Assembly: GCA_017536445.1 (NCBI GenBank)
Contig: JAFXHJ010000004.1
Span: forward strand, 1 to 37,676
DNA length: 37,676 nucleotides
Direction of reading: 5' to 3'
Source of the DNA: Clostridia bacterium
GTDB lineage: Bacteria; Bacillota; Clostridia; TANB77; CAG-465
Shown: positions 3,710 to 35,608 of the stretch, one piece after another
Layout of the letters: the number at the start of each line of letters is the position of its first letter
Position numbering within the stretch: the first letter of the stretch is position 1
Program-made: the position numbers and the translations under genes
The notes under the pieces: generated by a model
Database searches by the model: none
What the model was told of the DNA's origin: nothing
What the model saw: the letters and a program-made list of their open reading frames with translations, nothing else

Positions 3710-3722
3710 GGAGGAAAAACAA

Positions 3723-3851
3723 ATGAAAAGAAAACAAAAGAAACTAAACAAATTATTTAACCTAGTAGGACAAGCAGTAATGTACATATTATTCTGCAGC
3801 AGTTGTTCAGCAATACTAGTTGTGGGATTTTTATTAAACACAATTTATTAA
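3723..3851 (+). CDS. 42-aa membrane microprotein
   Basis: A short ORF with GGAGG seven to eight bases upstream. It has a very basic start (MKRKQKKLNK) followed by a 26-residue hydrophobic segment containing Cys-Ser-Ser-Cys. The layout suits a single-span membrane peptide or a short lipoprotein-like signal. Function unknown. Confidence 0.55.
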   Translation: MKRKQKKLNKLFNLVGQAVMYILFCSSCSAILVVGFLLNTIY

Positions 3852-3868
3852 TGAAAGGAGTGAATAAA

Positions 3869-4039
3869 ATGAGTGATTTAGAACATGTAACAGAAGTATT
3901 TGAAATGGAAGATTATGCAAAAGACTTATTATTTAATTCAACAACAGAAAGACAAATAGAAAGTGCAAGAAGTTTTTTAAATAGAGCACAACAAGAAATA
4001 AAAATGCTATACATCCCAACGCCAATTGAAAATGTATAG
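3869..4039 (+). CDS. Hypothetical early protein (56 aa)
   Basis: Start chosen at 3869, where AAAGGAG precedes ATG; the frame runs upstream to 3803 but has no ribosome site there and overlaps the previous gene. Acidic, helical protein (MSDLEHVTEVFEMEDYAKD...) with no recognised domain. Similar short acidic proteins are common in early operons of Firmicute phages. Confidence 0.6.
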   Translation: MSDLEHVTEVFEMEDYAKDLLFNSTTERQIESARSFLNRAQQEIKMLYIPTPIENV

Positions 4040-4117
4040 CTAACCATAAACTTTGATAAACATATGATTTTTCTAGATTATAACAAATAATTGCAGATAA
4101 ATCAAGAGGGAGAAATT

Positions 4118-4396
4118 ATGAAAATTGATTATTATAGACACATGAAAACAGATGAAATAGTCTACAAGGAAGAAGCAGAAAGTTATGCGCTAGATAAATT
4201 AGGAATAACAATAACACCAAAAGGAAAACACGGAGAAATGACACAAGAGCAAATAGCAAATATACAAGAAACAGTAGAATGGTACTTCAGTGGAAATTGG
4301 ATAGCAGAAGAGATAGAGGAAGCGAGAACAGACAGAGAAGATATAGAGGATATAAAGTATCAATACGATTTAGAAGTAAAGTGGGGGATAGCCTAA
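4118..4396 (+). CDS. Hypothetical early protein (92 aa)
   Basis: Acidic protein beginning MKIDYYRHMKTDEIV, with the start set by AGAGGGAG upstream of 4118 rather than the ATG at 4091. No motif is recognised. Its TAA overlaps the ATG of the next gene, indicating translational coupling. Confidence 0.65.
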   Translation: MKIDYYRHMKTDEIVYKEEAESYALDKLGITITPKGKHGEMTQEQIANIQETVEWYFSGNWIAEEIEEARTDREDIEDIKYQYDLEVKWGIA

Positions 4397-4542
4397 TGGA
4401 TTATTCAGAAAAGATAAAAAAATACACTTATGAGCAACTCGTATATGAAAGAGCAATAATTGATAAAGAAAAAGATAATTTATACATAAGGGATAAAGAA
4501 TTAAAAGAAGAGTTTAAAAGAAGATTAGCAGAGGAGAAATAA
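4396..4542 (+). CDS. Hypothetical helical protein (48 aa)
   Basis: Starts at the TAATG overlap with the preceding gene. Highly charged single helix (Lys/Glu-rich) with no recognised domain. The longer in-frame ORF from 4279 lies wholly within the previous gene up to 4396, so the short form is preferred. Confidence 0.6.
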   Translation: MDYSEKIKKYTYEQLVYERAIIDKEKDNLYIRDKELKEEFKRRLAEEK

Positions 4543-4543
4543 T

Positions 4544-4633
4544 ATGGATTATTTAGATAATTTAATCAATAGTACAGGAGATTATTTTGAAGATTATTTT
4601 ATAAACAAAGAAAATATCAAGGAGGAAAATTAA
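4544..4633 (+). CDS. Acidic 29-aa microprotein
   Basis: ATG follows GAGGAG and the previous stop directly; the product begins MDYLDNLINSTGDYFEDYF and is rich in Asp, Tyr and Phe. It ends three bases before the SSB-like start, so it could also act as a leader that couples translation to that gene. Confidence 0.45.
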   Translation: MDYLDNLINSTGDYFEDYFINKENIKEEN

Positions 4634-6354: not shown

Positions 6355-7035
6355 ATGGCAAGAGACAGTTTTATATTTTATAGAAGTTTTTATGACGCCT
6401 TAAACGAATTGCCAAAAGAGAATCAAGCAGATACATATAGAGCTATTGCAAGATATGCTTTAGACCAAGAAGAAACAGAACTCACAGGAATATCAAAAGC
6501 AATTTTCTCTTTAGTAAAACCACAGCTAGATGCAAATTATAAAAAATATGAAAATGGAAAGCAAAAGAAAAGCAAAACAGAAGCAAACGATAAGCAAAAA
6601 GTAAGCAAAACAGGAACTAATGTAAATGATAATGTAAATGTAAATGGTAATGTAAATGTAAATGTAAATGCAAATGATAATGTGGGCGACAGTTGTGTTG
6701 ACGGTCTACAAAAAATCATTGACTTTTATCAAAATAACATTGGATTAATCACGCCTTATGCAGTAGACGTTTTTGCAGATTATGCTAAAGAAATGCCTTA
6801 CGATGTCATTATATATGCAATGCAAAGAGCGGTAGAAGCGAATATAAGGACAATTAAGTACATAAAGGGCACATTAAATAATTGGCAAAATGCAGGTGTT
6901 AAGACATTAATTCAAGCAAAAGAAGAGAGTGAAAATTATAGAAAAAGCAAGCAAGTGATTAATACATGCGAGACAGAAGAGGAGAAAAAACAGAGAAAAT
7001 TAAAAGCTTTAGAGGAGGCATTAGGAAGTGACTAG
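6355..7035 (+). CDS. DnaD-domain replication initiation protein
   Basis: 226 aa from the ATG at 6355 preceded by AAAGGAG; the ORF extends to 6325 but without a site. The N-terminus (MARDSFIFYRSFYDALNELP..., about 1-75) matches the DUF6291-like domain that precedes DnaD domains in phage proteins. A low-complexity Asn/Val linker (about 89-110) joins it to a C-terminal DnaD/DnaB2-like helical domain (about 115-185; FADYAKEMPYDVIIYAMQRA, then YIKGTLNNW). Such proteins bind the phage origin and help load the host replicative helicase. The origin may lie in or near this gene, but no iteron set is evident. Confidence 0.85.
   Translation: MARDSFIFYRSFYDALNELPKENQADTYRAIARYALDQEETELTGISKAIFSLVKPQLDANYKKYENGKQKKSKTEANDKQKVSKTGTNVNDNVNVNGNVNVNVNANDNVGDSCVDGLQKIIDFYQNNIGLITPYAVDVFADYAKEMPYDVIIYAMQRAVEANIRTIKYIKGTLNNWQNAGVKTLIQAKEESENYRKSKQVINTCETEEEKKQRKLKALEEALGSD
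6618..6682 (+). repeat. Short-period repeat encoding the Asn-Val linker
   Basis: About eleven near-copies of AATGTA/AATGAT-type hexamers encode alternating Val-Asn residues between the two domains of the DnaD-family protein. The repeat is prone to length change, so linker length may vary between related phages. Confidence 0.75.
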
Positions 7036-7462
7036 AAGTGAGTTTATAGAAGCTACAAGTAGGTTAGAACAATACTACGACAAAGAATACAATACGCAGC
7101 AGTTACAAATTATGTATGAAGAATTAAGTAACTTTGATGTAAACAGGTACAGACAATTAATATCAGCGGTAATAAGAAAGAGTAAGTTTCTTCCTAAAGT
7201 TGCAGACATAATAGGTGCAAATGCAGAAGAGCCTTATACAAATAGCAACGCTGACAAAGAAGTAGTTGATTGTAATAAATGCAAAGGTACAGGATATGTA
7301 CTATACACAAAGCTAATTGATAATGGTGTGGGAAAATTTAAAAACATCTATGGAGCAGTATGCAGTTGTGGAAATGCAAAACAATACAAAGGATGGGAAG
7401 TAAACGATAGTGAACATAGAACTAATTTCTATACACCGCTAGCTCAAGAATTAGGAATTTAA
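7028..7462 (+). CDS. G39P/DnaI-N-like protein with zinc-binding C-terminus
   Basis: 144 aa, starting with GTG at 7028 inside the end of the DnaD gene; GGAGG lies about nine bases upstream. Residues 1-65 (MTRSEFIEATSRLEQYYD..., then VIRKSKFLPKVADI) resemble the helical N-domain of phage G39P-type helicase-loader regulators. C82-x2-C85-x-GTGY and C112-x-C114 form a likely zinc site. The order DnaD protein then G39P-like protein is common in Firmicute phages. A role in controlling host helicase loading is inferred. Confidence 0.65.
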   Translation: MTRSEFIEATSRLEQYYDKEYNTQQLQIMYEELSNFDVNRYRQLISAVIRKSKFLPKVADIIGANAEEPYTNSNADKEVVDCNKCKGTGYVLYTKLIDNGVGKFKNIYGAVCSCGNAKQYKGWEVNDSEHRTNFYTPLAQELGI

Positions 7463-13364: not shown

Positions 13365-13552
13365 GAATACCTAAAATAATACATAATAGAAACAGGGAAT
13401 ATATTTTTGTAAAAGAATACAAAGACTATATCAGATACAAAGATATGATAACAGGATCAATGACATGTTTTGATAAGCAAGAGCTAGGTTTAGTAAAAGA
13501 AATAATAAAACCCAATATAGCAGAGGGAAGAATAGGGAGAAGAAAATTATGA
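13361..13552 (+). CDS. Hypothetical basic protein (63 aa)
   Basis: Four-base overlap on both sides. Basic strands (IFVKEYKDYIRYKDMITG) then a short Arg-rich tail. Similar short proteins precede late-activator genes in some Firmicute phages. Function unknown. Confidence 0.6.
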   Translation: MRIPKIIHNRNREYIFVKEYKDYIRYKDMITGSMTCFDKQELGLVKEIIKPNIAEGRIGRRKL

Positions 13553-13959
13553 GATTACCAAAAGAAGAATATAAACGAGCAAACAATTGCTTAAAAAGAT
13601 ACAACTATAATTGTATTATGATATTAAATATAAGGGCGGATATAATGAGCATAAGCGGAAACGGAATAGATGGTATGCCAAAAGCTCCATATAGTATATC
13701 AGATAGCGTATTTAATAGTGTAATACAGCTACAAGAGAATCAAGAATTGCAAATAGCATTAAAAGAATACAAAGCAGTAGTACAAGCATTACAGTTGGTT
13801 AGCAAAGATAGTAAATACATATTTGAACAATTATATGTAAAAAGTAAAAGTAAATGGGAAATAATCAATTCAGGGATGTCAGAAAGCACATATTTTAGAA
13901 GAAAAAGAGAATTAATTTGTGCTGTAAATAAAGAATTAAAAAAATTGACAGTAAATTGA
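13549..13959 (+). CDS. ArpU/RinA-type late transcription activator
   Basis: 136 aa, the last gene of the early operon. The C-terminal half has a sigma-region-4-like helix-turn-helix (KYIFEQLYVKSKSKWEIINS, then GMSESTYFRRKREL). The N-terminus is helical, with a glycine-rich insertion. Size, layout and position directly before the packaging genes match the ArpU/RinA families, which turn on late transcription. Two TTGACAG repeats overlap its 3' end and may form part of the promoter it controls. Confidence 0.75.
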   Translation: MRLPKEEYKRANNCLKRYNYNCIMILNIRADIMSISGNGIDGMPKAPYSISDSVFNSVIQLQENQELQIALKEYKAVVQALQLVSKDSKYIFEQLYVKSKSKWEIINSGMSESTYFRRKRELICAVNKELKKLTVN

Positions 13960-13989
13960 CAGTTTTTTGATAAAAAACCGTGGTAAAAT
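13945..13989 (+). promoter_or_regulatory. Candidate late/ncRNA promoter with tandem activator motif
   Basis: TTGACAG occurs at 13945 and 13956, exactly 11 bp apart. An extended -10 (TGGTAAAAT, 13981-13989) follows, but no -35 lies at normal spacing from it (the second TTGACA is 22 bp away). A -10 with helically phased repeats upstream suggests activator dependence. Transcription would start near 13996, just before the structured RNA region. Confidence 0.5.
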
Positions 13990-14062
13990 AGTATCAGTGA
14001 AATAGTCGCAGGTAGAAATACCTCTAATGTCCGAGCGACAATATAAGGTCTATATTTTCTAT

Positions 14063-14092
14063 GAGCTGATGTAAGTCGGCTCTTTATTATTG
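14063..14092 (+). terminator. GUAA-capped hairpin with T-rich tail
   Basis: GAGCTGAT pairs with GTCGGCTC (14063-14070 with 14075-14082) around a GTAA tetraloop, then TTTATTATT. It may be a weak terminator for a short 5' RNA or an internal stem of the large RNA. It shares its outer GAGCT...GGCTCT frame with the hairpin at 14435. Confidence 0.5.
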
Positions 14093-14201
14093 GTATTAAT
14101 CAGAGCTAGGCTGTTAATATAAAGTGATTTAGTTTAATGATATATGATTTTTCCTTTTATAAGAACTTTTGTAAGTGAGCTTTCCTAGCAGGTTCATATA
14201 T

Positions 14202-14277
14202 CTAGGTCAAGTCTTGATGGTAAGATGCGGGTCTTGGATACCTGAGATTGAAGGTTCAACTCCTTCGACCTAGACCA
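14202..14277 (+). tRNA. tRNA-Pro (anticodon UGG), CCA encoded
   Basis: A complete 76-nt cloverleaf. Acceptor CTAGGTC (14202-14208) pairs perfectly with GACCTAG (14267-14273), then A and CCA. The D-stem is GTCT/AGAT with G18-G19 in the loop. The anticodon stem CGGGT/ACCTG holds the loop CTTGGAT, anticodon TGG at 14235-14237. The T-stem GAAGG/CCTTC holds loop TTCAACT. It would read CCA, a frequent proline codon in the late genes. Oddity: position 8 is A and position 14 is T, the reverse of the near-universal U8-A14 pair. Confidence 0.85.
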
Positions 14278-14434
14278 GGGGCAGTTGATAGGTCTGTCAG
14301 GTACCGCAAAACCTTGGAGTGTCTTTACGGGTGGACTATAAAGTATCCGTACAATTAAAATATTAATTAAATTCCATTAAGTTGGGGGCCAAACCTGAGG
14401 GAATAGTATTCTATAGAAAAAGATATCTTTTGCG

Positions 14435-14467
14435 GAGCTACGTACTAAGTGCGTGGCTCTATTTTTC
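14435..14467 (+). terminator. Strong 11-bp terminator-like hairpin
   Basis: GAGCTACGTAC (14435-14445) pairs with GTGCGTGGCTC (14449-14459) through a TAA loop, followed by TATTTTTCT. It has the form of an intrinsic terminator and may end the tRNA-containing RNA, leaving 14482-14606 as a separate domain. Confidence 0.65.
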
Positions 14468-14679
14468 TAATTGTAGATAGCAGGTAGGACACATATTAAG
14501 GTTGAGAATTAATAGGCTATAGCAAGTCACAATAGGCTATACCGCTCAAGCAGTAGTTGTGTTATAGATTGGAATAGCTATCCGAGAAAAATGATGTGTC
14601 TTACCTAGTGTTTATACGTACAAATGAAGTTATTAATTATATTGATATATAGTTTAATAAAGATAGAGAGGTGTTTATT

Positions 14680-14811
14680 ATGACGACACAAGAACTAATG
14701 TTAGAACATTACAATGACAAATGTAAATATTGTGATGGAAAAAACTGCGATGGTATCCGTATAACTGAGAAGAACACTACGAGGTGCAATAGAGATGAGA
14801 AGAAAAGGTAG
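14680..14811 (+). CDS. Cys-rich small protein (43 aa)
   Basis: GAGAGGTG seven bases upstream. Contains C15-x2-C18, C23 and C36 (CKYCDGKNC), a four-Cys metal-site pattern, in a charged peptide. First gene after the structured-RNA region. It overlaps the next small gene by 17 bases. Confidence 0.55.
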   Translation: MTTQELMLEHYNDKCKYCDGKNCDGIRITEKNTTRCNRDEKKR

Positions 14812-15005: not shown

Positions 15006-15386
15006 ATGAGTGAGAAACATGCAGGTGGAAGACCACCAAAATATAAAACAAAAGAAGAAATACAAGAAAAAATAGATGAATATTTTAAAATGTGCAAATT
15101 AAACAACAAACCATATACAATAACAGGTCTAGGATTAGCATTAGATATGAGCAGGCAGGATCTTATAAACTACTCTAAAAAAGATGAGTTTTTTGACACA
15201 ATAAAAAGAGCAAAAATGAGAGTGGAAAATTATTTAGAGGAAAGACTAATAAATGATTCTAGTGCAACTGGAATCATTTTTAATTTAAAAAACAATTATG
15301 GGTGGAAAGACAAACAAGAAAATGTCAATGTTGGGGTTAGTTATGAAGATTATATAAAAAGAGTAGAAGATGAAGAAGAATATTAA
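15006..15386 (+). CDS. terS: Terminase small subunit (P22 gp3-like)
   Basis: 126 aa beginning MSEKHAGGRPPKYKTKEEIQ. The GRP-K-YKT opening, helical DNA-binding body (ALDMSRQDLINYSKK) and C-terminal segment containing GIIFNLKNNYGW are typical of terminase small subunits that recognise the packaging site. It overlaps the large-subunit gene by 17 bases. Ribosome site GGGAGAGG. Confidence 0.88.
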   Translation: MSEKHAGGRPPKYKTKEEIQEKIDEYFKMCKLNNKPYTITGLGLALDMSRQDLINYSKKDEFFDTIKRAKMRVENYLEERLINDSSATGIIFNLKNNYGWKDKQENVNVGVSYEDYIKRVEDEEEY

Positions 15387-17016
15387 TACAAGAAAATATA
15401 TAGAAGAATATGTAAAGATAAGAAACAAAAATAGCAAAATAATTCCATTAAAGCTTAACGAACCACAACTAAAGTATTACAACATTATTAAAGAACTAAA
15501 AGCAAAAGGGAAACCCGTAAGAATAATAATACTTAAAGCGAGACAAATGGGATTTAGCACAGTTACAGAAGGGATATTTTTTAAGGAAACAGTAACTAAA
15601 CCTAATATAAATACTGCAATAGTAGCTCACAAAGAAGATTCAACTACAAACTTGTTTAATATGAGCAAATTAATGTATGATGAATTACCTGAACCAATGA
15701 AACCCGAGAAAAAGAAAAGTAACGCTAAAGAATTAGTATTTGACAAAGAAGATGGAAGTGGCTTAAAAAGTAAAATAAAATGTTTTACAGCAGGCGGAAA
15801 AGGAGTTGGAAGGTCAGACACTATAAATAATTTACATTTATCAGAATTAGCCTTTTGGCAAGGAGACAAGAAAACAACATTGACAGGTTTGTTACAAGCA
15901 GTTCCAAATACTCCTGATACAATGATAGTAATAGAATCTACAGCGAATGGATATGAATATTACAAAGAGTTATGGGATGATGCAGTAGCAGGGAAAAACG
16001 ACTTTATTCCAATTTTCATAGGTTGGAATGAATTACAAGAATATAAGATGACATACACAGGTTTTGAATTGACAAAAGAAGAAAATGAACTACAGAAGAC
16101 ATATGGATTAACTTTGGAACAATTGACTTGGAGAAGATGGTGCATAGCAAATAACTGCGGTAACGATATAGAACAGTTTAAACAAGAATATCCAATAAAT
16201 CCAGAAGAAGCATTTATCAGTACAGGTAAATGTTATTTTGATAAACAAAACATAATAAATAGAATACAAGAAGTCAAAGATATAAAACCTATTCAACAAG
16301 GATATTTTATCTATGATTATAATGGGATAAAAATATCTAAAATACAATGGGTTGAAGACAAAGAAGGTCCAATAAAAATATATAAGAAACCAAAGCAAAC
16401 GCATCCATATGTATTGTCAGGAGATACTGCTGGAGAAGGTTCGGATTATTTTACAGGACATGTATTAGATAACACAACAGGAAAGCAAGTAGCAGTATTA
16501 AAACAAGAATTTGATGAAATAGAATATACAAGGCAAATGTATTGCTTAGGAAAACATTATAACAACGCATTAATAGGAATAGAAGCAAATTACACTACTT
16601 ATCCAATACAAAAGCTAGAGGAATTGCAGTATTCAAAACAATATATAAGAGAAAAAGAAGACACTTACACAGGCAAGACAGAAAAAAGATTTGGATTTAA
16701 GACAAATTTAATAACAAGACCATTAATATTAGCACAATTACAAACAATTGTAAAAGAGATGATTGAGCTAATAGTAGATGTGGATACATTAAAAGAAATG
16801 CTGACATTTATAAAAAACGAAAAAGGACGAGCAGAAGCACAGCAAGGATATCACGATGACTTAGTAATGGCACTAGCAATAGCATATTACATAAGACCAC
16901 AGCAAAGTATGCATGCTATAAAGAAAGAAAAGATAATTAAAGATAACATGTATAAAGACTTTGGAATTAAAGAAACATCAGATGAGGATTACGGAAGTAG
17001 AATAGAAATTATTTAA
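15370..17016 (+). CDS. terL: Terminase large subunit (packaging ATPase and nuclease)
   Basis: 548 aa, full length. ATPase domain: Walker A-like KARQMGFST (residues 56-64), Walker B with catalytic E159 in NLHLSELAF, and the coupling motif IESTANG (188-194). Nuclease domain: acidic residues D352 (SGDTAGEGSD), E405 (IGIEAN) and D496/D497 (YHDDLVMALA). These are the hallmarks of a headful-type terminase that packs and cuts concatemers. Its order with terS and a P22-like portal suggests headful packaging. Confidence 0.95.
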   Translation: MKKNINTRKYIEEYVKIRNKNSKIIPLKLNEPQLKYYNIIKELKAKGKPVRIIILKARQMGFSTVTEGIFFKETVTKPNINTAIVAHKEDSTTNLFNMSKLMYDELPEPMKPEKKKSNAKELVFDKEDGSGLKSKIKCFTAGGKGVGRSDTINNLHLSELAFWQGDKKTTLTGLLQAVPNTPDTMIVIESTANGYEYYKELWDDAVAGKNDFIPIFIGWNELQEYKMTYTGFELTKEENELQKTYGLTLEQLTWRRWCIANNCGNDIEQFKQEYPINPEEAFISTGKCYFDKQNIINRIQEVKDIKPIQQGYFIYDYNGIKISKIQWVEDKEGPIKIYKKPKQTHPYVLSGDTAGEGSDYFTGHVLDNTTGKQVAVLKQEFDEIEYTRQMYCLGKHYNNALIGIEANYTTYPIQKLEELQYSKQYIREKEDTYTGKTEKRFGFKTNLITRPLILAQLQTIVKEMIELIVDVDTLKEMLTFIKNEKGRAEAQQGYHDDLVMALAIAYYIRPQQSMHAIKKEKIIKDNMYKDFGIKETSDEDYGSRIEII

Positions 17017-33439: not shown

Positions 33440-33791
33440 TTATGAATTTAAAAGAGGAGATACAGCATTTTTAGAAAAATTCAGACCAAATGATTTAAAT
33501 GGGATTCCGCTAACACTTTCAGCAGATGACAACATTTACTTTACAATGAAGCAAGAAGCAGACGGACAAGCAATATTGAAAAAGAAAATTAACAATGGAA
33601 TTACATATGAAGAAGATGGATATTTTCATATAACTTTAGAACCACAAGACACAGCCAATTTATCTGCCGAAACATACAAATATGATATAGAACTTGTGTT
33701 GCAAAGTTTTGAACCTACATATGTAAAGACATTAATTGAAGGAGAAATAACTCTATTGCAAGATATTACAAAGGAAGGTGATAGGGTATGA
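33417..33791 (+). CDS. Baseplate upper-protein-like (BppU-N) fibre adaptor
   Basis: 124 aa. Strand pattern with YEFKRGDTAFLEKFRPND, YFTMKQEADG and KYDIELVLQSFE matches the N-terminal domain of Firmicute baseplate upper proteins, which anchor adhesins. It overlaps the next large adhesin gene, so it probably serves as its attachment partner. Confidence 0.65.
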   Translation: MTKTKIIDYEFKRGDTAFLEKFRPNDLNGIPLTLSADDNIYFTMKQEADGQAILKKKINNGITYEEDGYFHITLEPQDTANLSAETYKYDIELVLQSFEPTYVKTLIEGEITLLQDITKEGDRV

Positions 33792-35608
33792 GTAATAAAA
33801 TAGTAGGTTCAGTAGAGACTAAAATAGATGTAATTAATATATATCCTGAATTAGAAGATGTAGTAATAACACCAACGAAAAAAGAACAAAATTTATTATC
33901 AAATAAATATGGATATAAGAACATAAAAGTAAAAGAAATACAAGGAGAAAATATAACTATTACTCCTTCAACAAAAGAACAAGTTTTTGAAGGAATATAT
34001 GACAAAGTAAAAGTAGCACCAATAGATTCAGAAGAAATAAATATAACACCATCTCAACAAACGCAAACCTATGAAGGTATGTATAAGAAAATAAATGTTG
34101 CTGCAATAGAGGGAGAAAACCTAATAGTAACTCCTACAACGAAAGAACAGGTATTAGAAGGGGTATATACCAACGTAAGTATAAACCCAATAGAAGGCGA
34201 AACATTAGAAGTAGCACCAACAACAGAGGCACAAAAGTTTGAAGGAGTATACACTAACGTAAATGTAGACCCAATAACAGGTGAAACCTTAAATGTAACA
34301 CCAACTAGTGAAAAACAAAATTACAAAGGTGTATATACTGATGTAAATGTAGATGAAATAACAGGCGAACAATTAAATGTAACACCAACTACTAATTCAC
34401 AATTACACGAAGGTGTTTATACGACAGTATATGTAGAACCAATAGAACCACAAGAATTAGTTGTAACACCATCAAATGAGGCACAAACTCAAGAAGGTGT
34501 TTTCACAAGTGTAACAATAGCAGGAGATGAAAATTTAGTATCTGAAAATATTAAAAGTGGAACATCTATATTTGGAGTAGAAGGAAACTTTGAAGGTAGT
34601 AGCGACTATAACATTTCAGCTACCAACATGACTTCAACTTTTTCTTGGACTACTTGGATAACAAAAATTGGTTCATTAAATTTTAAAAATCTTACAAGTC
34701 TTAGTAATACTTTTAAAGGAATGTACAATCTAAGAGAAATAACAGGAGATTTAAATACTATAAAAGCAACAAATGCAAACAGCATGTTCAATGGTTGTAC
34801 TTCATTAATAGCAGTTCCTACAATGGATTTATCAAAAGTACAAAGTGCATACCAAATGTTTTATAATTGTAGTAAATTAGTAGAAATACCAGAATATAAT
34901 ATGCCTGCTTGTACAAATATGCAAGAAATGTTTTACAATTGTAGTGCTTTGAAAAAGGCTGTAATAAAAAACACTTCAAAAGTTACAACTATGCGTTCAT
35001 TGTTTGAAAAATGTAATGCACTAGAAGAAGTAGAATTAGATATGACTTCTTGTACTGATGTAGCTAATATGTTTGCTAATAGTTATGGTACTGCACGCAA
35101 CATAGACATAACCTTACATAATACATCAGGATTAACAAGTGTAAATGCCATGTTTTATTATAATTCGTGGATACAAAACGGACCAGAAATGGACACTTCA
35201 AATGTTACTAACATGAATGCGTTTTATTTGGGTGCTGGTAATGTTAGCACTGTTCCTGCGTATAATGCAGGCAAAGTAACAAATATTTCAAACGCGTTTG
35301 TACAGGCATACGATATAGAAGATTTTGGAGGACTTATAGATTTAGGAAAAGCATATACAGCGACAACAGCAAACAATTCTTCATATACATTAAATTTAAG
35401 TGATTGTACTAAATTAACACACGATAGCTTAATGAATGTAATAAATAATCTATACGACTTAAATTTAACATACGATGTGGCAAACGGCGGAACATTATAT
35501 AGACAAAGTGTGATATTAGGGGCAACAAATCTAGCCAAACTACAAGCAACAGAAGAGGGGCTACAAGCATTAGCAGACGCAGACGCTAAAGGCTGGGACG
35601 TAAGCTAG
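33788..35608 (+). CDS. BspA-like LRR adhesin / receptor-binding protein
   Basis: 606 aa. Residues about 58-250 hold six full 28-residue repeats plus a partial seventh, each with a TPTT...Q..EGVYT.V core, probably a beta shaft. Residues about 300-540 hold BspA-type leucine-rich repeats rich in MF.NC..L and TSKVT elements (for example AYQMFYNCSKLVEIP). BspA repeats are typical of surface adhesins of gut bacteria and eukaryotic microbes, so this is the leading receptor-binding candidate. Confidence 0.8.
   Translation: MSNKIVGSVETKIDVINIYPELEDVVITPTKKEQNLLSNKYGYKNIKVKEIQGENITITPSTKEQVFEGIYDKVKVAPIDSEEINITPSQQTQTYEGMYKKINVAAIEGENLIVTPTTKEQVLEGVYTNVSINPIEGETLEVAPTTEAQKFEGVYTNVNVDPITGETLNVTPTSEKQNYKGVYTDVNVDEITGEQLNVTPTTNSQLHEGVYTTVYVEPIEPQELVVTPSNEAQTQEGVFTSVTIAGDENLVSENIKSGTSIFGVEGNFEGSSDYNISATNMTSTFSWTTWITKIGSLNFKNLTSLSNTFKGMYNLREITGDLNTIKATNANSMFNGCTSLIAVPTMDLSKVQSAYQMFYNCSKLVEIPEYNMPACTNMQEMFYNCSALKKAVIKNTSKVTTMRSLFEKCNALEEVELDMTSCTDVANMFANSYGTARNIDITLHNTSGLTSVNAMFYYNSWIQNGPEMDTSNVTNMNAFYLGAGNVSTVPAYNAGKVTNISNAFVQAYDIEDFGGLIDLGKAYTATTANNSSYTLNLSDCTKLTHDSLMNVINNLYDLNLTYDVANGGTLYRQSVILGATNLAKLQATEEGLQALADADAKGWDVS
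33959..34547 (+). repeat. 84-bp coding repeats in the LRR adhesin
   Basis: Codon-aligned repeats of exactly 84 bases start at 33959, 34043, 34127, 34211, 34295 and 34379, with a partial copy at 34463. They encode the 28-aa shaft unit. Copy number may vary between relatives and would change shaft length. Confidence 0.85.

Follow-up and report, generated by a model that had tools for sequence, protein, structure and literature searches.

The stretch of DNA analysed here, called the window throughout, is the whole 37,676 nucleotides of contig JAFXHJ010000004.1. It carries phage packaging genes, terS (GP3_package, 15006–15386) followed by terL (15370–17016), and an integrase gene at its opposite end, which suggests a temperate phage. 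Upstream of terS lies an interval, 13960–14679, bounded by a DUF1492-like regulator of late-type transcription (PHROG 36/248, 13549–13959) directly on its 5' side and by a 43-aa CxxC ORF (14680–14811), the first gene downstream. The regulator gene, the CxxC ORF, terS and the RNA features of the interval are on the forward strand. A PHROG search with the 43-aa ORF gave no match; a tiny CxxC protein is frequently the first gene past such intervals in phages that are otherwise dissimilar. The interval of 720 bp contains no ORF of at least 50 aa, as expected from an earlier note on this DNA, which had described it as gene free and as the site of a large, structured RNA with a tRNA embedded in it. 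Its predicted folding is better than that of shuffled sequences (z of −2.6, with none of 20 shuffles as good), which taken alone is modest evidence for structure.

Searches with DNA, patterns and models, run on IMG/VR and within the same bacterial order, gathered about 20 phage or prophage loci of uncultured Clostridia in which a leader with the same modules lies between a PHROG-36/248 regulator and terS/terL. Eight of the nine upstream regulators tested matched PHROG 36, and the terS/terL genes downstream are of several unrelated kinds, so the modules travel independently of the packaging genes. A distant blastn search of the INPHARED phages returned no match to the interval. In L020, a phage contig whose terL is 88% identical to that of the window, the homologous leader (about 3720–4430) keeps the 5' hairpins, the GCTAGG/CCTAGC hairpins, the hairpin of an RNA that we call M3 and the 3' domain (83%); it has no tRNA and differs at the counterpart of 14278–14412. 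The flanks are thus conserved and the tRNA is optional, the reverse of an outcome that the earlier note had entertained, in which the tRNA alone would be conserved between freely varying flanks. Modules have been gained, lost and duplicated among the leaders, and in L031 an ORF separates the 5' module from the kissing-loop module. We are highly confident of this modular RNA architecture, in which discrete base-paired modules hold the same position in many phages and are exchanged or lost independently. Comparison of homologous intervals, which the earlier note had proposed, revealed covariation in three separate modules (M3, the kissing loop and a framed cassette), and with the tRNA these confirm a large structured RNA locus. 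That the interval is a neutral spacer around a tRNA is hardly credible: a lack of conservation in L020 at 14278–14412 would suit such a spacer, but the covariation already contradicts it, and the tRNA is the very part that is gained and lost. Two further loci, L022 (3390–3640) and L021 (150–370), whose terL proteins are 61–66% identical, have a different structured interval before terS; we considered these as homologous leaders and rejected them as unrelated to the leader of the window.

At the 3' end of the regulator gene is a direct repeat of AAATTGACAGT (two copies with 11-bp spacing, 13942–13963; none of 300 shuffles was as good), followed by an extended −10-like element, TGGTAAAAT (13981–13989). 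This arrangement fits an activator-dependent late promoter, with the repeat as the proposed activator site and the −10-like element as the proposed late promoter, recognized by its sequence pattern. L061, L123 and L059 have, in the corresponding position, direct repeats of different sequence with 10- to 11-bp spacing; the repeat statistics are weak at several loci, and the promoter model derives mainly from these three and the window. Downstream is a hairpin, GTCGC/GCGAC, enclosing an inner hairpin (14005–14039), which is found in the window, L020, L031 and L062, and in divergent form in L061; the stem of the inner hairpin changes in step from phage to phage. It is followed by a terminator-like hairpin with a GTAA loop (14063–14082) and a T-rich tail, together spanning 14063–14092. 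This and M3 are the two terminator-like sites found in the interval, where 0.3 would be expected.

Next are two hairpins, at 14093–14120 and 14175–14197, whose loops GCUAGG (14105–14110) and CCUAGC (14184–14189) are complementary and could kiss. Complementarity was found in 16 of 16 instances, as GCUAGG/CCUAGC, ACUAGG/CCUAGU, ACUAGA/UCUAGU and close variants, after removal by hand of two antisense artefacts (L042 and L112, both + strand) admitted by a scan that lacked a strand filter; the permutation P value of 0.0002 was computed with both artefacts still included. The stems of the hairpins differ in sequence among phages and retain their pairing. Eight of 15 instances carry, between the two hairpins, an anti-Shine-Dalgarno CTCCT, where 0.27 would be expected; none of the 15 has its reverse complement there. 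CTCCT is frequently part of CCTCCTTTC, as at the 3' end of 16S rRNA. In the window, this segment (14093–14197) holds only CCTTTT and no CTCCT.

The tRNA in the middle of the interval was confirmed as a complete tRNA-Pro(UGG) at 14202–14277 by ARAGORN and Rfam (52.2 bits). These searches also give its cloverleaf and UGG anticodon, and C1-G72, A73 and an encoded CCA were read from the sequence as identity elements. Across the leaders, the identity of the tRNA in this slot varies or, as in L020, the tRNA is missing. The stretch that follows (14278–14412) is structured in the window and not conserved. Of the helices named in the earlier note, the one placed here, TACGGGTG/TATCCGTA nested within TCAGGT/ACCTGA (about 14300–14395), exists in the window and is replaced by other sequence in L020; those kept in relatives are GTCGC/GCGAC with its inner hairpin, the GTAA-loop hairpin, a hairpin of 11 to 12 bp and a 13-bp helix. 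A GC-rich, closed and structured segment of ~230 nt lies between a tRNA-Trp and the CxxC ORF in L029 (about 1650–1875), in a position shared with L062; for the L029 segment, Rfam gives no match.

M3 is an RNA of ~60 nt (14413–14470) with a covarying 12-bp hairpin (14434–14460) that ends in a T-run, and it is a homologue of a small RNA found 3' of host Abi_2 genes. It recurs in 26 of 385 genomes, with all exact matches in uncultured Clostridia. Its stem is paired in 98.8% of cells, a value reached in none of 500 shuffles, in an alignment that was fitted to the model; upstream of the stem is an invariant CTTTTGCGG. In ten genomes, the stop codon of an Abi_2 gene is followed ~10 nt later by the start of M3, and a promoter-like sequence for M3 sits inside the 3' end of that gene. 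The adjacent protein is Pfam Abi_2 (E value, 4e-26; AbiD in PADLOC) and carries RNACAH, a HEPN RNase motif resembling the RNQCAH of AbiF_Cd. A converse search that started from the Abi_2 protein alone, a stronger test of linkage than one starting from M3, found the protein in 9 genomes among 366, and M3 was directly downstream in all nine. L163, with an Abi_2 protein of 56% identity, also has M3. When the model was built exclusively from host copies, it detected M3 in the window at 14413–14470 (61.4 bits; E value, 2.6e-9), with the next match in the window at 17.8 bits (E value, 0.62), and by this model the window copy belongs with the Abi_2-linked M3 RNAs. The host genome of the window itself has no Abi_2 gene.

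Away from Abi_2, 11 of 28 M3 loci are neither adjacent to the gene nor in phage leaders. Copies in L111, L113, L120, L122, L127, L129, L130 and L131 adjoin genes resembling those for toxin-antitoxin, HipA-like, type I modification, Eco57I-like or DUF1016 proteins (named by eye), and the copies away from Abi_2 generally have restriction-like, toxin-antitoxin-like or plain host genes nearby (names read from translations). At L161, around 6601 on the reverse strand, M3 is present with no full Abi_2 gene, and at L154 (759–873) the last 15 Abi_2 codons, with the promoter inside, remain beside an intact M3 as a solitary antitoxin-like RNA. In the phages L023 and L024, M3 directly follows a tRNA-like CCA end; processing of the tRNA would thus leave M3 with a 5' terminus close to the one set by the promoter in hosts.

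These neighbourhoods bear on what M3 might do. It could be only an efficient terminator or a small mobile element that hitch-hikes beside Abi_2, as its hairpin plus T-run and the variety of other genes that it adjoins would allow. We judge this improbable, given that M3 is conserved beyond the needs of a terminator, in the invariant sequence upstream of its stem, and shows compensatory stem changes among the Abi_2-linked copies. Its spacing to the gene is also constant across Abi_2 proteins that are 56 to 100% identical, and it appears to have its own promoter, which L154 keeps together with M3 after losing most of Abi_2.

M3 is instead likely, by analogy, an antitoxin mimic directed against an Abi_2 toxin. 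In Clostridioides difficile, AbiF_Cd, which carries the RNQCAH motif, is neutralised in trans by the RNA RCd22 (PMC12373285). Like this AbiF antitoxin RNA (RF03085), M3 is a small hairpin RNA adjoining the gene of an Abi_2-family HEPN toxin; it differs in sequence and structure, in lying downstream of the gene and in having its own promoter-like sequence, and its Abi_2 subfamily is distant, with 23 to 27% identity to the Abi_2 proteins that adjoin RF03085. We accordingly rejected M3 as a canonical abiF RNA, since it does not match RF03085 and is not upstream of the gene. Taken alone, M3 would be a new form within a known kind, the Abi_2-linked RNAs. There are precedents for phage RNAs that copy host defence RNAs, as proposed for M3, in the pseudo-ToxI of phage PhiTE (PMC3475682) and the RNA anti-CRISPRs (PMC10651486); unlike these, M3 is known by its resemblance to a host RNA, and it belongs to a leader with several RNAs.

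Directly after M3, the 3' domain (14472–14616) is a framed cassette, in which a 22-bp stem (14472–14494 with 14594–14616) surrounds a payload (14495–14593). Part of this stem is the 13-bp helix that closes the domain (14482–14494 with 14594–14606). Together with its conserved flanks, this stem was counted 23 times at 19 loci, after removal of identical sequences and with some loci possibly from related phages, and not at all in reversed sequences. In the inner 12 pairs, 274 of 276 cells are paired, a count that by itself is selected because the scan demanded at least 11 of 12 pairs; when the arms were re-paired at random, the count averaged 197 and reached at most 241. The independent evidence for the cassette comes from this excess over re-paired arms, the zero matches in the control and the abundance of compensatory changes. 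All 23 copies share a G.G mismatch and a U.G pair that lie beyond the stretch used for selection. A universally kept wobble is expected of RNA, unlike a DNA palindrome. We considered a DNA recombination site and judged it unlikely because of the invariant U.G and G.G and the constant orientation of the stem to transcription.

The payloads range from 9 to 234 nt and fall into several unrelated families, one of which is common to the window and L020. The window cassette has all the defining traits: the 22-bp stem, the invariant G.G, the conserved flanks, a variable payload and a position before late genes. A longer-spaced form of the cassette pattern did not occur in IMG/VR. None of the payload families has an Rfam entry, and at relaxed E values Rfam matched only tRNAs and ROOL at the payload-bearing loci. 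Some payloads are tRNA-Leu-like with a hugely expanded middle, namely in the L085 cassette at 1243 (− strand), L089, L096 (reverse strand, about 4430–4620) and L024; they bear a TGGCGGAAT D-arm and a T-arm with GTGCAAAT, and neither ARAGORN nor Rfam calls them. RNase III is specific for double-stranded RNA and cuts the stems around pre-16S and pre-23S rRNA. At about two helical turns, the length of the cassette stem fits an RNase III substrate, and from this length and the analogy to rRNA operons we infer that the stem may be cut. As in those operons, a long stem frames an RNA, which here would be released from a polycistronic transcript; the cassette differs in its new stem sequence, its invariant G.G mismatch and its exchangeable small-RNA payloads.

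The earlier note had raised two giant phage RNAs, GOLLD and ROOL, or else a new class, and had suggested a search with the Rfam models. ROOL is a phage-borne structured RNA found near tRNAs, and GOLLD is likewise phage borne, with tRNAs sometimes inside the RNA (PMC12286853). The covariance models of GOLLD and ROOL (RF03087) did not match the interval up to an E value of 10, ROOL shows no match to it in sequence either, and Rfam finds only the tRNA there. The search works on such sequence, given that it detects a genuine ROOL (311 bits) in L096 (− strand, 6672–7253), in the same late leader with tRNAs and two cassette-like stems. A divergent RNA of the GOLLD/ROOL type, folding as a whole and forming one multimeric cage, would share with the interval its size, phage setting, internal tRNA and kissing loop, and the ROOL in the corresponding interval of L096 speaks for it; nevertheless, it is very improbable in the face of the negative search, of modules that are gained, lost, duplicated and split by an ORF, and of an L096 leader that has ROOL in addition to its cassettes. 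Rather than a single compact and ornate RNA, the interval is a string of modules that are independent of one another: it has small modules in place of the single 550- to 600-nt fold of ROOL, and in place of the single conserved 3' region of GOLLD an exchangeable cassette. A new class is the option that fits, as the modular leader RNA is absent from Rfam. The framed cassette, the kissing-loop module and M3 each lack an Rfam 15 family and a description in the literature that we searched, and because this holds for the framed cassette, we rate the architecture as categorically new.

The main rival to a leader that works through released RNAs is a cis-acting control leader, the modules of which act on their own transcript. 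Terminator-like hairpins would halt the polymerase, and the kissing loop, the cassette stem or a put-like element would permit read-through to the late genes; alternatively, the anti-Shine-Dalgarno sequence of the kissing module would govern translation of the first gene. Its position between a late regulator and late genes, the two terminator-like hairpins (14063 and M3) in line with transcription, the excess of CTCCT between the kissing hairpins and the cassettes that frequently end immediately 5' of the first gene all suit such a leader. It accounts poorly for payload families that are wholly different within a constant frame, for tRNAs and an entire ROOL in the same leader, for M3 as a free-standing gene beside Abi_2 with its own promoter-like sequence and for the ORF that interrupts the leader in L031, and we consider it rather unlikely as the explanation. 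Cis control and release of RNAs can both be true together.

Our preferred reading, for which we see about an even chance, is that a late transcript begins with this interval as its untranslated leader, which acts as an RNA island releasing trans-acting RNAs. The upstream regulator would turn on the promoter at 13942–13989 late in infection, and the transcript, running through the leader into the late (packaging and structural) genes, would be cut into pieces. The tRNA would be freed by tRNA processing, and the cassette stem would be cut by RNase III or another nuclease specific for dsRNA, yielding stable small RNAs. M3, in analogy to the AbiF antitoxin RNA, would bind and silence an Abi_2 toxin (an AbiD/F-type HEPN RNase) during infection, and the remaining payloads would be additional RNAs of this sort. 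The phage tRNA would substitute for tRNAs cleaved by host defences, and phage tRNAs acting against host defence have precedent (PMC11555353). An anti-defence function of the leader RNAs, argued from these analogies, has in our estimate slightly less than an even chance. A general system, in which a conserved RNase III-cut 22-bp frame delivers exchangeable anti-defence RNAs from the late leader, ranging from antitoxin mimics, tRNAs and tRNA-like decoys to even ROOL, with each payload family matching a different host defence, is a tentative and doubtful extension.

If the preferred reading is correct, phages hold arrays of interchangeable RNAs where only tRNAs and ROOL were noticed earlier, and M3 connects an RNA of phages with the Abi_2/AbiF toxins, the presumed ancestors of Cas13. 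The role of ROOL, GOLLD and other large phage RNAs would become testable, as possible payloads of anti-defence arrays. Two further observations were made on the sequences examined. A 606-aa phage protein of the window (33788–35608) has three stretches that match Pfam DUF285 (“Mycoplasma protein of unknown function”), and L099 carries a skipping-rope RNA (RF02924, 50 bits) at 931–1027 (− strand) on the same fetched stretch.
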